Translations under genes and position numbers: made by a program
Notes under the pieces: model-generated
What the model saw: only the letters and a program-made list of their open reading frames with translations
Database searches by the model: none
Told to the model about the DNA's origin: nothing
Assembly (NCBI RefSeq): GCF_025751435.1
Contig: NZ_JAOWKY010000002.1
Coordinates: forward strand, 1-64,000
From: Albidovulum marisflavi
GTDB taxonomy: Bacteria; Pseudomonadota; Alphaproteobacteria; Rhodobacterales; Rhodobacteraceae
Direction: 5' to 3'
DNA length: 64,000 nucleotides
In this document: positions 46,723 through 52,603 of the stretch, one piece after another
Numbering within the stretch: position 1 is the stretch's first letter
Layout of the letters: each line of letters begins with the position of its first letter

Positions 46723-47685
46723 CTAGGGGGCCGCGTCCGTCGCGTCGTGACGGTGGATGGTCGCGCGTCCCCGCCCGCCGTTCTTGGACTGATACAGTGC
46801 CGCATCGGCGCCCTCGGTCATCGTGCGGGCGGTGGGACTGTCATAGGCAACCGACCACGCCACGCCGATGCTGCAGGAGATGCGGCAAAGGGTTCCATCG
46901 TAGTCGATCGGCCGCTCGATTCCGGCGATGATGCGGTGGCTGATGCGGCGCAGGCTTTCAAGGTCGCCCGCGCCGGTCACGATTGCCATGAACTCATCGC
47001 CGCCGATCCGGGCGACCATGTCGCTTTGCCTGATCTGCGCGCGCAAGACGCGCGCCACCTCTGCCAGCACCCGGTCGCCCGCCGCGTGACCCAGCGTGTC
47101 GTTGACCTGCTTGAAGCGATCCAGATCGAGGTGAAAAAGCGAAAATGGCGCGCCTCTCGCCGCGCTCGCAACAGCCCGATCCAACGCCGCGTCAAAGGCG
47201 CGGCGGTTGGCAAGACCGGTCAGGGCATCGGTCATCGCCTGCGCCTCGGCCGCGCGCCGGGCGGACTGCAAACGGTGGTTAAGCGACTTCAGTTCGTCCA
47301 TCACCGCTGACTTCACTTCGGTCAGGTAAAGCATTTCGACGGTCAGATCGGTCGGCGCGAAATCCGAATGGTTCAGCCCGTGGTCCCGGGCGGCGTCAAC
47401 GGCGTTGATACCGAACGAAAGGTTGACCAGCGCCCCCTCCCCCCGCGCCAGGCAGACAAGATGGCCACGCAACTGGCGCGACGGCCGGGCGCGAAAGCGC
47501 AGGACGATCTTGCGATCCGCAAGCTTCAGAAGCGCCCTCATCGTTGAGGCGCGTTCAGGGCGCGTAACCTCGAACACCTCCAGGAACTGCCGACCGACCA
47601 GGGTCAGGGCGCCGCAGACACGCTGAAGCGTTGGCCCGACCGACATGATCTGACCATCGCAGGACACGACCACATGCATAGGCAT
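46723..47685 (-). CDS. HNOBA-domain diguanylate cyclase, partner of H-NOX
   Basis: This 320-residue protein has an N-terminal HNOBA (H-NOX-associated, PAS-like) domain, about 1-135. It includes D-F-A-P-T-D-L-T-V-E-M-L-Y-L-T-E. A short coiled linker leads to a GGDEF domain with intact active site R-I-G-G-D-E-F and a product-inhibition site R-Q-S-D five residues before it. It should make cyclic di-GMP under control of the H-NOX protein encoded just upstream. ATG at 47685 has GGAG six bases upstream. A GTG at 47745 overlapping the H-NOX stop is less likely. Confidence 0.88.
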   Translation of the reverse strand: MPMHVVVSCDGQIMSVGPTLQRVCGALTLVGRQFLEVFEVTRPERASTMRALLKLADRKIVLRFRARPSRQLRGHLVCLARGEGALVNLSFGINAVDAARDHGLNHSDFAPTDLTVEMLYLTEVKSAVMDELKSLNHRLQSARRAAEAQAMTDALTGLANRRAFDAALDRAVASAARGAPFSLFHLDLDRFKQVNDTLGHAAGDRVLAEVARVLRAQIRQSDMVARIGGDEFMAIVTGAGDLESLRRISHRIIAGIERPIDYDGTLCRISCSIGVAWSVAYDSPTARTMTEGADAALYQSKNGGRGRATIHRHDATDAAP

Positions 47686-47744
47686 GAGCTTCTCCAACCC
47701 AGGCCCGGGGATCGTGGCTTGAACGCAAAGGAACTGGCCCGCCA

Positions 47745-48314
47745 CTACCGCACCCGGCCAATTGCCAGATCAAACCGCCGCCCCTCAGCGAACTGCGCCT
47801 GCAGAAGTTCGATCGCGACGGCTTCGGCACCCTCCTCCGCGTCGATCAGCGCCAGCGCGCCATAGTCGTCAGCCATAGCGCGCAGGATCCCCGCGAAGAC
47901 CGCGCCGTAGCCCCTGCGCCGGGCGCAGCACAGCCGGTACCGCCCCGCACCGGTCGGGATCAGCCTAAGATCGGGCAGATTGAGTTCGGGGACGGCCAGG
48001 TGCGCACGCTCGGCGAGTTCATCAAGCGAATGCAGGAAGTCGACATAATCCAACCCGCCGAAGCGAAGCAGGCGCCGCAGGGGCTCGAGTGACACGAGGT
48101 AGATACCCAAGTCCTCCAGCAACGCGTCGCGCGGCTTTCCAAGCTCTTGCGCGGCCAGGTCGATCACGCTGTCGGTCAGCGCCGCGTCGTAGGCCAGCAT
48201 GGTTTCGAAGCCCTCGGGCGGCAAACCCGCCCCAGCGGACACGCGCGACCAGACCGCGGCACCATAGGTGTCGCGCAGGAAACACTGAATCGACCGATTG
48301 ATGAGCCCGTGCAT
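47745..48314 (-). CDS. H-NOX domain protein lacking the canonical proximal histidine
   Basis: This 189-residue protein starts MHGLINRSIQCFLRDTYG and aligns over its length with H-NOX sensors, which bind NO or O2 through heme. Two key features are altered. The proximal-histidine position (His102 in Thermoanaerobacter H-NOX) is Ala101 in L-D-E-L-A-E-R-A-H-L. The Y-x-S-x-R heme-propionate motif is L128-C-C-A-R132, retaining only the Arg. Pro114 is kept. His95 or His105 might still bind heme, or the vicinal Cys129-Cys130 may sense redox or metal. AAGG lies six bases before the ATG. It is followed by the HNOBA-GGDEF gene. Confidence 0.85.
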   Translation of the reverse strand: MHGLINRSIQCFLRDTYGAAVWSRVSAGAGLPPEGFETMLAYDAALTDSVIDLAAQELGKPRDALLEDLGIYLVSLEPLRRLLRFGGLDYVDFLHSLDELAERAHLAVPELNLPDLRLIPTGAGRYRLCCARRRGYGAVFAGILRAMADDYGALALIDAEEGAEAVAIELLQAQFAEGRRFDLAIGRVR

Positions 48315-48428: not shown

Positions 48429-49982
48429 TCAGAAATCCGTGGGCGCGCCGCCCTCGGCCTTGCGGCGGTCCACGAAGGACCTAAGCTCTTCGCGGATGCC
48501 CTCATCCATGGGTGGTGCCTCGAACTCGGCCATGATCGCGTGGAAGACGCGGTTCGCGCGTTCGGGCGTCCACAGCGCACCGTCGATCTGCCAGGCCTCG
48601 AAGTTGCGCCAGTCGCTGACGAAGGGCTGATAGAAGGCGGTGGTGTAGCGATCCTGCGTGTGCTGGCACCCGAAGTAATGGCCGTCCGGCCCCACCTCGG
48701 CGATGGTGTCGATGGCGATATCCTCTGGCGTGGCCGCCCAGACCTCGGGCTCCATGTAGCGCTGGATCATCTGCAGGACCTCACAGTCCATGATGAACTT
48801 CTCGGGGCTCGCGATCAGCCCGCCCTCGAGCCAGCCTGCCGCGTGGTAGACAAGGTTCGTGCCGGACTGCACCGCCGCCCAAAGGCTGTTCGACGTTTCC
48901 CACATCGCCTGGCCGTCCGGCACGTTGGCGGCGCAGACGCCCGATGACCGCAGCGGCAATCCGTAGAACCGCGCCATCTGACCGGTGACCTGGGTCGCGC
49001 GCATGTATTCGGGGGTTCCGAATGCCGGCGCGCCCGATTTCATGTCGACGTTCGACGTGAAGGTTCCGATCATCACCGGTGCGCCGGGCACGACGTACTG
49101 GATCAGCACGATCGCGGCCAGCGCCTCGGCGATGGACAGCGTCACCGCGCCGGTCATCGTCACTGGCGCCATCGCTCCGGCCAGCGTGAACGGAGTGACG
49201 ATCACCGCCTGCCCTGCCCGCGCCAGGCGAAGCGCGCCGTCGATCATCGGGAAGTCATGCTTGAGCGGCGAGACAGAGTTGATGTTGGTGAACATCCGCG
49301 GCTTTTCGCGGAACTCTTCATGGCTTAGCCCGCCCGCGATGCGCACCATCTCCATCGCGTCCTCGACCCGCTCCTTGCCAAGGCTGTAGGCGTGCACGAC
49401 CTTGTCGGTAAGCGTCAGCTTTTCATAGATGCAGTCAAGGTGGCGGACCGAGGCGTGAACGTCGATCGGCTCGACCGGATAGCCCCCGGCGAAGTGGATG
49501 CAGTTGAAGTACTGCGTCAGCTTGATGAAGTCGCGGAACCCGTCCATGAAGCCAGAGACCTTGCCGCGTTCAAGATCCCAGTAGTTCGGGGGAGAAGACA
49601 CGTTGCCGAACAGGATGTGCTTGCCGCCCATCGGCAGCGCACGGTCCGGGTTGCGTGGGGTGACGGTGAATTCCGCGGGCGCGCGTCCCACCATCTCCAT
49701 CACGAAATCCTCGTCCATGCGGACGGTCTGGCCGTCGACCTTGCAGCCGGCTTGGGCAAAGATATCCAGCGCCTCGTCGTTCAGGAACCGGATGCCGATC
49801 TCCTTGAGGATGCGCATCGCACCCTTGTGAATCGCCTCCACCCCCTCGGGGCCCAGCGGTTCGATCGGGCGGTCGGGATTGACGGGAATGCGCCAGGGCA
49901 TCTGCGTGATCGCCTGGCCGCCAGAGCGCCGGACATTCCCGGTGCGTCCGCCTGTACGCTTGCGTTTGTGTTCGTCGGCCAT
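48429..49982 (-). CDS. MttB-family methyltransferase without pyrrolysine
   Basis: This 517-residue protein belongs to the trimethylamine methyltransferase (MttB) superfamily, a TIM barrel that moves a methyl group from a methylated amine to a corrinoid protein. There is no in-frame amber codon, so it is a non-pyrrolysine member, the group that includes glycine betaine methyltransferases. Visible segments are I-L-F-G-N-V-S-S-P-P, Y-H-A-A-G-W-L-E-G-G-L and E-V-G-P-D-G-H-Y-F-G. No corrinoid protein gene is adjacent. A palindrome lies just upstream. The true substrate is unknown. Confidence 0.85.
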   Translation of the reverse strand: MADEHKRKRTGGRTGNVRRSGGQAITQMPWRIPVNPDRPIEPLGPEGVEAIHKGAMRILKEIGIRFLNDEALDIFAQAGCKVDGQTVRMDEDFVMEMVGRAPAEFTVTPRNPDRALPMGGKHILFGNVSSPPNYWDLERGKVSGFMDGFRDFIKLTQYFNCIHFAGGYPVEPIDVHASVRHLDCIYEKLTLTDKVVHAYSLGKERVEDAMEMVRIAGGLSHEEFREKPRMFTNINSVSPLKHDFPMIDGALRLARAGQAVIVTPFTLAGAMAPVTMTGAVTLSIAEALAAIVLIQYVVPGAPVMIGTFTSNVDMKSGAPAFGTPEYMRATQVTGQMARFYGLPLRSSGVCAANVPDGQAMWETSNSLWAAVQSGTNLVYHAAGWLEGGLIASPEKFIMDCEVLQMIQRYMEPEVWAATPEDIAIDTIAEVGPDGHYFGCQHTQDRYTTAFYQPFVSDWRNFEAWQIDGALWTPERANRVFHAIMAEFEAPPMDEGIREELRSFVDRRKAEGGAPTDF

Positions 49983-50072: not shown

Positions 50073-50789
50073 TCAGGCGCTCTGGGCGGTATCGCGAAAG
50101 CTGGCGACCCAGTCGGGGAGATGGCCGATATGGGGAAGAACGATGTCCGCGTAAGGCGCAAGGTCCTCCGGTCCGGCGATGCCGGTCAGGACACCCACCG
50201 TCCGCATTCCGGCGGCGCGGCCCGCGACAAGGTCGTGCACGCTGTCACCCACCATGACGACCTGGTCCGGGTCAAGCCCGCCGCTTGCCGCAAAGGCCAG
50301 AAGCGGCCCTGGATCGGGCTTCGCGCCAAAGCCGCTGTCGAAGCCGGAAACGAAATCGAAGTACTGAAGGACTCCCGCCCGCCGAAGGTGCTCCTGCGCT
50401 GGTTCCGCGAAGTCATTCGTCGCAAGACCGACGTAAAGGCCCGCCTGCTTGAGAGCGGCGAACAACGGCGGAAGGTCGGTCGCGGACACAAGCGCCGTTT
50501 CACCGGCAAGGCTCGACATCCGCGCGATCAGCGCGGACCGGTCGACGCCGGGCAGAAGCGGCATCATCACGTCCGCGATCTCTGCCGGCGTGTGTGCGAT
50601 CACATGGCTGTCGGGTGCGAAGTCACCCGTGTTCAGGCCGTAACCGATGACGCGGCCGATGGCCGCGGCGCGGTCCCGGTCGCCTGAGGTCAGCTCAAGC
50701 AGCAGCGCCCTTGTCCATGCGCTCCAGGTCGCGCGAAAGTCAAAGAGCGTTCCGTCCTTGTCGAACACCAGCCCACGGATGGCACGCAT
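50073..50789 (-). CDS. HAD-superfamily phosphatase (phosphoglycolate phosphatase-like)
   Basis: This 238-residue protein has the HAD motifs F-D-K-D-G-T-L-F-D near residue 9, A-T-N-D-F-A at motif II, G-A-K-P-D-P for motif III and V-G-D-S-V-H-D at motif IV, with an alpha-helical C1 cap. It resembles Gph, but the substrate is open. GGGGGGAG precedes the ATG. It ends 90 bases before the MttB gene on the same strand. Confidence 0.85.
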   Translation of the reverse strand: MRAIRGLVFDKDGTLFDFRATWSAWTRALLLELTSGDRDRAAAIGRVIGYGLNTGDFAPDSHVIAHTPAEIADVMMPLLPGVDRSALIARMSSLAGETALVSATDLPPLFAALKQAGLYVGLATNDFAEPAQEHLRRAGVLQYFDFVSGFDSGFGAKPDPGPLLAFAASGGLDPDQVVMVGDSVHDLVAGRAAGMRTVGVLTGIAGPEDLAPYADIVLPHIGHLPDWVASFRDTAQSA

Positions 50790-50850: not shown

Positions 50851-51141
50851 TCAGCCCCAGTCGGGCGCGGCGCCGGGCAACGCCATCCGTGCCCTGCGCA
50901 GGCTTTCGTAACCCAGTCCCACAGAGTCGCAAAAGGCGATGACCCAAGCGTCATCCAGGAGCAGAAAGTCCATAACCGACGCCAGAACCTCCGGCTCCGC
51001 GGCGCGGGTGCGCATGTCTCCGGGGCGCAGACCGGAAGACCCCAGGAAGACGGGCAGAAGCTCGTCGTTCGCCGCGATCCAGCCAAGCGCCTGCAGGGCG
51101 ACCGTCTCGGCGAAGTCGCCGTGATTGTGAAACTTGCTCAA
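50851..51141 (-). CDS. DUF3572 family protein
   Basis: This 96-residue protein begins, after a TTG start, L-S-K-F-H-N-H-G-D-F-A-E-T-V-A-L-Q-A-L-G-W and has V-M-D-F-L-L-L-D-D-A-W-V-I-A-F, the DUF3572 pattern. The TTG at 51141 is preferred because GGAG lies five bases upstream and the length then matches the family. Function is unknown. It is divergent from the pleD-like gene, a pairing I recall in other Rhodobacteraceae, which hints at a cell-cycle link. Confidence 0.75.
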   Translation of the reverse strand: MSKFHNHGDFAETVALQALGWIAANDELLPVFLGSSGLRPGDMRTRAAEPEVLASVMDFLLLDDAWVIAFCDSVGLGYESLRRARMALPGAAPDWG

Positions 51142-51226
51142 ATCCGCTCCAACCTTGCAAGGCTTTGTTAACCAAAGCACGGGAAGGATGGCTTCAGGGC
51201 GGCAACAAGTAAAGCGGGTAGGTCTC

Positions 51227-52603
51227 ATGGCGGGGCGCATCCTGATCGTGGACGATATTGCGACCAATCGCATGGTGCTTAAGGTGATCCTTTCATCCGC
51301 ACTTTACGAAACGCTGCAGGCGACCAACGGAGACGACGCGATCGCGCTTGCTCAGCAGATGCAGCCCGACCTGATCATTCTCGACGTCGACCTGGCGGGC
51401 ATCAACGGCATCGAAATGTGCGGGCGACTGAAGGCCAATCCCCTGACGCGCGACATTCCGGTGGTGATGATTGCGGCCCAGAAGGATCACGCACGCAAGA
51501 TCAAGTCCCTGCGCGCCGGAGCAGCCGAGGTGTTTGCAAAACCCATCGACGATTCGCTTCTGCTGGCGCGACTCCGGTCGCTTCTGCGCGCCCGCGAGAC
51601 CGAACGAGAGCTTGGCTGCCGCCTGGCCCAAGGCACGCTGCCCGGTCTTGCGGAAGGCGCGGCCGGCTTTGTCGCGCAAGCTCATGTCGCGATCGTGGCC
51701 GCACTGCCCAACTCGGTCCAGTCGTTGCACCGCGACCTGTCGCGAGCGACGTCGGACCATATCTCGCTGATGGCCGAAGAGGCGGCCATCGGCCTTGCGG
51801 CCGAGAACCGGGTGCCGGATGTCTTTCTTGTCGTGACGGACGCAGGGCGCCCCGAACGGACGCTCAGGCTTATTTCCGATCTCCGCTCGCGTCCGGCCAC
51901 GCGAAAGTCTGCGCTATGCGCCGTCGTGCCGGCAGGGTCGGGGGCGCTTGGCGCGATCGCGCTTGATCTTGGGGCCGACGATCTAGTCGAGCTGCCCGCC
52001 GAGGCGACAGAGCTGGCCTTGCGCCTGTCATCGCTGGTCCGGCGCAAGCGGCAAGGCGACCGCATGCGTATTTCGATCGCGGACGGGCTGCGGCTTTCGG
52101 TGCTTGATCCGCTGACGGGCCTGCACAACCGCCGCTATGCAATGCCCCAGCTTCACCGGATTCGGGAACACGCGCGCCAGTCGGGGCGCGACTATGCGGT
52201 CATGGTGCTGGACATCGACCGGTTCAAGACGATCAACGACACCTTTGGACATGCGGCGGGCGATACCGTGCTGGTGCAGATCGCAGAGCGCCTGCGCGCC
52301 AACCTGCGGCCGGGCGACACGCTCGCGCGGATCGGCGGGGAGGAGTTCGTGGTCGCCAGCGCCGACACTCCACTTCCCGCGGCGCGGGCACTGGCGGAGC
52401 GGATCCGCCATGCCATCGAAGAGCGGCCTTTCGCCTTGACGGACGGCCGCAGCATCGGCGTGACTCTTTCGGTCGGGCTTGCCATTGGGGCCGCAGGCGC
52501 GGGCCCATCTGTAGACGTGCTGCTGGAATCCGCCGATCGGGCGCTTTTCAAGTCCAAGTCAGAGGGGCGCAACCAGGTGACCGTACATCGAACGGCTGCC
52601 TAG
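51227..52603 (+). CDS. pleD: PleD-like response regulator with GGEEF diguanylate cyclase
   Basis: This 458-residue protein has the PleD layout: a receiver domain (about 4-118) with phospho-acceptor Asp53 in I-I-L-D-V-D and Lys in F-A-K-P-I-D; a second, degenerate receiver (about 155-290); and a GGDEF domain (about 295-455) with G-G-E-E-F and the inhibitory R-P-G-D five residues before. It should make cyclic di-GMP upon phosphorylation. In Caulobacter, PleD acts in polar development. Start at 51227 begins M-A-G-R-I-L-I-V-D-D; an ATG at 51188 is less likely. Confidence 0.92.
   Translation: MAGRILIVDDIATNRMVLKVILSSALYETLQATNGDDAIALAQQMQPDLIILDVDLAGINGIEMCGRLKANPLTRDIPVVMIAAQKDHARKIKSLRAGAAEVFAKPIDDSLLLARLRSLLRARETERELGCRLAQGTLPGLAEGAAGFVAQAHVAIVAALPNSVQSLHRDLSRATSDHISLMAEEAAIGLAAENRVPDVFLVVTDAGRPERTLRLISDLRSRPATRKSALCAVVPAGSGALGAIALDLGADDLVELPAEATELALRLSSLVRRKRQGDRMRISIADGLRLSVLDPLTGLHNRRYAMPQLHRIREHARQSGRDYAVMVLDIDRFKTINDTFGHAAGDTVLVQIAERLRANLRPGDTLARIGGEEFVVASADTPLPAARALAERIRHAIEERPFALTDGRSIGVTLSVGLAIGAAGAGPSVDVLLESADRALFKSKSEGRNQVTVHRTAA

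Follow-up and report, generated by a model that had tools for sequence, protein, structure and literature searches.

An H-NOX protein lacking the proximal heme histidine, encoded next to an HNOBA-GGDEF diguanylate cyclase in Albidovulum marisflavi, and its subfamily in Rhodobacteraceae

The window analyzed here, a stretch of 64,000 nucleotides from Albidovulum marisflavi, encodes a 189-residue Group 5-type H-NOX protein (hnoX, here designated P0001; 47745..48314, minus strand) without the proximal heme histidine. Its predicted fold, the loss of the ligand residue, purifying selection on the gene and its close linkage with an intact cyclase gene are established. We propose, with a probability of roughly 0.6, that P0001 functions as a heme-independent regulatory subunit, binding and restraining the co-encoded HNOBA-GGDEF cyclase and acting as a two-conformation switch, the cue being something besides NO on a His-ligated heme. 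A preliminary description of this gene, made from the sequence alone, had offered two possibilities, a heme held by another residue (His95 or His105) or a heme-free sensor relying on a vicinal Cys pair or some other signal; judging from family alignments, heme-free use of another signal appears to be the best reading.

P0001 was assigned from its open reading frame together with Pfam, a Nostoc alignment, AlphaFold2 and Foldseek. Its match to the Pfam HNOB family (PF07700) scored 62.6 bits, above the curated cut-off of 25.5, and sequence comparison with the Nostoc H-NOX protein Alr2278 gave an E value of 2.5e-11. The AlphaFold2 model, built from an 85-row alignment, has a pLDDT of 91.6. When it was searched with Foldseek, H-NOX structures came out on top, the best PDB entry being Nostoc H-NOX 3tf8 (TM 0.78, rmsd 2.8). 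By this predicted structure P0001 has the H-NOX fold, in agreement with the initial impression that its overall segments were kept.

Ala101 (codon GCC, 48012..48014, minus strand) occupies the position of the proximal heme ligand, as had been noticed at the outset. In a helix aligned without gaps it lies opposite the His of the Nostoc Alr2278 segment 'NLHARVGLS', and this column holds His in 32 of 33 canonical H-NOX rows. Similarly, the segment 'DELAERAHLAV' of P0001 pairs with 'DDLHDRARLAV' of His-keeping relatives. Displacement of the His by a local insertion, a case that the preliminary description had named as fatal to its claim, is ruled out, as the helix is gap-free in the family alignment and contains no shifted His. 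A sequencing artifact is also unlikely: of the two closest relatives, L032 has Ala and L033 has Thr, and none of 19 aligned relatives from the genus has His. The gene is present in 21 of 22 genomes of the genus.

The Y-x-S-x-R motif is the propionate-binding triad of heme-based H-NOX proteins. It is missing from P0001, which thus lacks both the ligand and the triad by which heme-based H-NOX gas sensors are recognized. The motif was found in 0/130 rows of the subfamily versus 17/19 canonical rows of Rhodobacteraceae, and it is absent even from all 10 His-keeping members of the subfamily, including the Hnox protein of Dinoroseobacter shibae. Counts of His, Tyr and Ser in the heme-site columns are 32, 33 and 32 among canonical rows (n=33) and 0, 1 and 21 among His-less rows (n=120). 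Degradation of the motif had been noted before, and the loss is real; the register then given, L-C-C-A-R at residues 128-132, was two residues off. In the family alignment, C130 rather than L128 falls in the Tyr column and A131, beside a one-residue gap, in the Ser column; an Arg is still found near the Arg position (R132-R134). In P0001, as in its two closest relatives, the strand that once carried Y-x-S-x-R is shorter by one residue, a difference from Group 5 as published.

The extent of His loss was assessed in a Rhodobacteraceae sample of 198 genomes from 197 genera, 138 of which contained HNOB matches. The alignment held 150 of 154 rows (149 fetched HNOB matches and the window): 19 canonical H-NOX proteins, one truncated sequence and 130 proteins of the P0001 type. 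Rows L230 (which ends before position 101), L231 (an uninformative 100-base stretch) and L247 (missed by the profile used for alignment) were dropped; HNOB matches in G023, G036 (two) and G068, and also G590, lie outside the alignment. The 33 canonical rows used for comparison combine these 19 with 14 from a class-wide search, among which L234 and L241 are again from Rhodobacteraceae. The proximal His was lacking in 120 of the 130 P0001-type rows and kept in 10. It was replaced by Pro in 97 cases, Asn in 5, Ala in 4, Gln and Arg in 3 each, Thr and Ser in 2 each, and Lys, Asp, Gly and Glu in one each. Pro also occupies this position in Paracoccus denitrificans HAMBI_2443 (L273) and in L160, which we assigned to Rhodobacter sphaeroides; L131, which we took as the D. 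shibae Hnox, keeps His. A separate alignment of the best 80 named loci of a longer list, which overlaps the Rhodobacteraceae sample and was kept out of the counts, had His in 3/80. Across the class, HNOB turned up in 18 of the 385 genomes searched. Other families account for 13 of the 18, and the 12 of these that were aligned all keep both His and Y-x-S-x-R. His loss therefore characterizes most of the subfamily and is not a local oddity of P0001, which the preliminary description had treated as a single unusual protein.

Loss of His in this class of H-NOX proteins has already been published. P. denitrificans and R. sphaeroides H-NOX were reported to be without the proximal His (Kumar & Spiro 2017, PMC5588039), and Group 5 H-NOX proteins were described as keeping His in <10% of cases, having mostly Pro instead, lacking a conserved Cys and conserving the hinge Gly, with their sensing mode called an open question (Lee-Lopez & Yukl 2022, PMC8738867). 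The subfamily of P0001 corresponds to this description in its replacement residues, in the lack of a conserved Cys and in the kept hinge Gly, and the sampled His-keeping fraction (10/130) agrees with the published figure. The Group 5 network was seeded with P. denitrificans H-NOX (Pden_3719; PMC8738867), and full-length identity between the P. denitrificans protein and P0001 is 40.5% (tblastn E 4e-36). Placed here by traits and identity, P0001 is a further Group 5 member, one that differs from the group norm in having Ala rather than Pro.

Several other features remain conserved. Gly70 (48105..48107, minus strand) and Gly142 (47889..47891, minus strand) are invariant across all aligned H-NOX rows, and we equate them, by a putative mapping, with the two published hinge glycines. 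The heme-side Pro114 (47973..47975, minus strand), correctly described earlier as kept, is invariant in 120/120 His-less, 10/10 His-keeping and 33/33 canonical rows. Gly70 and Gly142 are likewise kept in all 120 His-less rows, and Tyr42 in 119. In addition, the subfamily has two signatures: RRLLRFGG (residues 80-87; 48054..48077, minus strand), near-invariant except at residue 86 and seldom found in canonical H-NOX, and ADDYG (residues 148-152; 47859..47873, minus strand), whose G152 is common in canonical H-NOX too. Each of the signature residues (E67, D68, R80, R81, L82, L83, R84, F85, G87, R103, A148, D149, D150 and Y151) occurs in 125-130 of the 130 subfamily rows, whether or not His is kept, and in at most 9/33 canonical rows. 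In the portions of the open-licence literature consulted, there is no mention of the signature (RRLLRFxG, ADDY) or of the His state of D. shibae Hnox, which is weak evidence of absence, the search not being worded for motifs; nor do these sources mention loss of Y-x-S-x-R in His-keeping members, a tree that rejects a single loss of His, or a heme measurement on a His-less member.

Comparison of the hnoX gene with its two closest relatives (NG86) gave dN/dS pairs of 0.093/1.093 and 0.118/0.971, pointing to strong purifying selection on P0001. With dN/dS at about 0.1 and an intact partner gene, a pseudogene or gene decay is ruled out. The earlier view that the pathway looks functional is supported.

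The partner gene codes for a predicted HNOBA-GGDEF diguanylate cyclase (46723..47745, minus strand), whose first possible start, GTG, overlaps the hnoX TAG stop by one base. Its product belongs to the GGDEF domain family (142.4 bits against PF00990) and has a partial match to Pfam HNOBA (34.8 bits, profile positions 10-80 of 216). Both the GGDEF active-site motif (46990..47004, minus strand) and the RQSD (RxxD) inhibitory-site motif (47020..47031, minus strand) are present, as originally stated. A same-strand HNOBA-GGDEF frame follows hnoX in 129/130 rows, the one exception (L023) being cut by a contig end, and the GGDEF motif is intact in 129/129 partner frames.

An MTTB-family methyltransferase gene (48429..49982, minus strand) precedes hnoX on the same strand and is a common neighbor of His-less members. 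Among loci with 1.5 kb or more of upstream sequence, a same-strand MTTB frame ended no more than 600 bases before hnoX in 35/106 His-less and 0/7 His-keeping cases. Anywhere in the fetched upstream stretch, the figures were 47/77 and 1/7; this count covers the 84 loci, of 116, with enough flank on both sides, and leaves L019-L031 outside. In both counts the His-keeping loci are too few to support a contrast. MTTB and GGDEF are among the Group 5 neighbor families in a figure legend of PMC8738867. Upstream of the MTTB gene, the ORF at 50073-50789 (minus strand) has a DKDGT motif and is HAD-like by eye; in an annotated relative (L274), the gene order is HAD - MTTB - H-NOX - GGDEF, with a HAD hydrolase at the same place. 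A second diguanylate cyclase near the first, a response regulator-GGDEF protein, is encoded at 51134-52603 (plus strand); the same receiver-GGDEF arrangement occurs in DgcB of P. denitrificans (PMC5588039).

In the mechanism that we favor, P0001 would retain the H-NOX fold and hinge after losing the classical heme site, would bind and restrain the adjacent cyclase, and would shift from one conformation to another with the two conserved glycines as pivots; the cue for the switch would be something besides NO on a His-ligated heme. An in vivo role for a His-less member follows from P. denitrificans, whose H-NOX has Pro at the ligand position and whose hnoX mutant shows a partial defect in attached growth and has no BapA adhesin (PMC5588039); the double cyclase mutant dgcAB overproduces biofilm (PMC5588039).

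Tight linkage to the partner, combined with loss of the sensor residues, would also fit a P0001 that serves as a structural or constitutive subunit only, sensing being left to the HNOBA domain of the partner or to some other component. The soluble guanylate cyclase alpha chain, which is heme-free, provides a model for such a subunit. The hinge glycines, kept in all His-less rows, and the near-invariant signature are what a working switch would show; they are not decisive, and on balance we regard a purely structural role as rather improbable.

Another explanation is that P0001 still binds heme through a different residue (His2, His95, His105, a Tyr, water or an anion) and senses NO as usual. 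Some observations favor this idea and count against heme independence. The title of entry 2kil describes Shewanella H103G H-NOX solved in the Fe(II)CO form, so porphyrin can stay without the His, and His2, present in 102/120 His-less rows, could be a ligand. Moreover, His95 is found in 69/120 of these rows, Tyr42 and Tyr151 are each found in 119/120, and D. shibae Hnox is listed as heme-binding (PMC8846402) yet has no Y-x-S-x-R. However, the column table reveals no ligand-type residue gained in His-less versus His-keeping rows. His95 is no more common where the proximal His is lost than where it is kept (6/10), and at the position of His105 77% of His-less rows have Arg, so neither of the two binders suggested in the preliminary description is a conserved stand-in. 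Neither His2 nor His95 is present in 12/120 His-less rows, in two of which (L202 and L220) the N-terminus is missing or unclear. Tyr42 looks structural because it is conserved in canonical H-NOX too (31/33). A retained heme with a substitute ligand thus seems unlikely, and P0001 itself probably carries no heme.

The vicinal Cys pair, Cys129-Cys130 (47925..47930, minus strand), could point to a Cys-based redox sensor. C130, which lies opposite the Tyr of Y-x-S-x-R, is Cys in 64/120 His-less rows, and the heme-free H-NOX protein of Vibrio cholerae responds to oxidants (PMC7108781). The pair itself is not conserved: it is found in only 4/120 His-less rows, the window counted, and is missing in the two closest relatives, and 12/120 rows have no Cys whatsoever. 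Together with the reported lack of a conserved Cys in Group 5 (PMC8738867), these numbers make a Cys sensor very improbable. Since none of His95, His105 and the Cys pair is conserved, rescue of sensing by any of them is unsupported.

Nitrite reductase genes bear on the possible involvement of NO. NirK was defined by matches above the curated cut-off (24/198 genomes) and NirS by 37 genomes picked from 78 with strong PF02239 matches. Carriage of the subfamily is mildly associated with these genes (47/130 genomes versus 13/68 others, the latter including four with an unclassified HNOB match; Fisher p 0.015, uncorrected for kinship), which also counts against a heme-independent reading. NirK/NirS are not significantly linked to the His state (6/10 His-keeping versus 41/120 His-less genomes, p 0.17). 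The genome containing the window has no NirK or NirS match, so endogenous denitrification NO is not evident there.

Phylogenetic analyses suggest that the His state changed repeatedly. A FastTree phylogeny of 137 rows requires 7 His-state changes, one being the split from the outgroup. For IQ-TREE, 61 of these rows were chosen, and the H-NOX sequence minus position 101 was combined with that of the partner. Under a quick search, two constraints were not rejected: all His-less rows in one clade (p 0.73), and the 10 His-keeping rows in one clade (p 0.597); in both tests the constrained tree beat the quick tree, which lay about 104 log units below that of a careful search. The careful tree also has 7 His-state changes, and its test, which covered the single His-less clade, rejected that clade (p 0.0132). 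Repeated change, by loss or regain, is favored and not proven, because the bootstrap had not converged and the starred branches force only 2 changes. A broader and more speculative possibility, which we consider doubtful, is that Group 5 is a separate sensor class in which the heme site was abandoned more than once, the switch being driven by another ligand or partner contact through RRLLRFxG/ADDY surfaces, with a possible link to methylated-amine metabolism through MTTB and with the rare His-bearing members as natural two-input intermediates.

Some Rhodobacteraceae encode canonical-type H-NOX proteins (L002-L018), and 14 genomes also hold a His-less Group 5 copy elsewhere. An HNOBA-GGDEF frame adjoins 0/17 of these loci (about 3.5 kb each); L002 is accompanied by an HNOBA-like frame and L016 by a GGDEF frame. 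One such paralog (L018, genome G086) has an intact Y-x-S-x-R and Gln for the proximal His, apparently a separate loss outside Group 5.

Models linking NO to c-di-GMP in Paracoccus, Rhodobacter and roseobacters rest on canonical H-NOX heme-NO chemistry. D. shibae sits in the His-keeping minority, while P. denitrificans, R. sphaeroides and most sampled members are without the ligand, so the D. shibae result is not simply transferable. As the same partner and signature occur in His-keeping and His-lacking members, the subfamily offers a clean natural comparison for the cue of a heme-less H-NOX protein; leads to the cue of P0001 come from the invariant signature and from the MTTB link.

Among known systems, canonical heme H-NOX proteins (Nostoc Alr2278, Shewanella, Caldanaerobacter) resemble P0001 in fold, the two glycines and Pro114, and differ in having the ligand His and Y-x-S-x-R. 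The V. cholerae protein shares with our interpretation of P0001 the idea of a heme-independent response; its mechanism, unlike that of a subfamily without conserved Cys, depends on Cys and zinc (PMC7108781). A further parallel is D. shibae Hnox/Dgc1 (Dshi_2815, taken as L131, the only HNOB match in its genome), which belongs to the same subfamily and has the same signature and HNOBA-GGDEF partner. In this system H-NOX was described as a Dgc1 inhibitor (PMC7232146) and, in contrast to P0001, the His is kept and Hnox is listed as a heme NO sensor inhibiting Dgc1 (PMC8846402); given this listing, an NO function may be shared across the subfamily.
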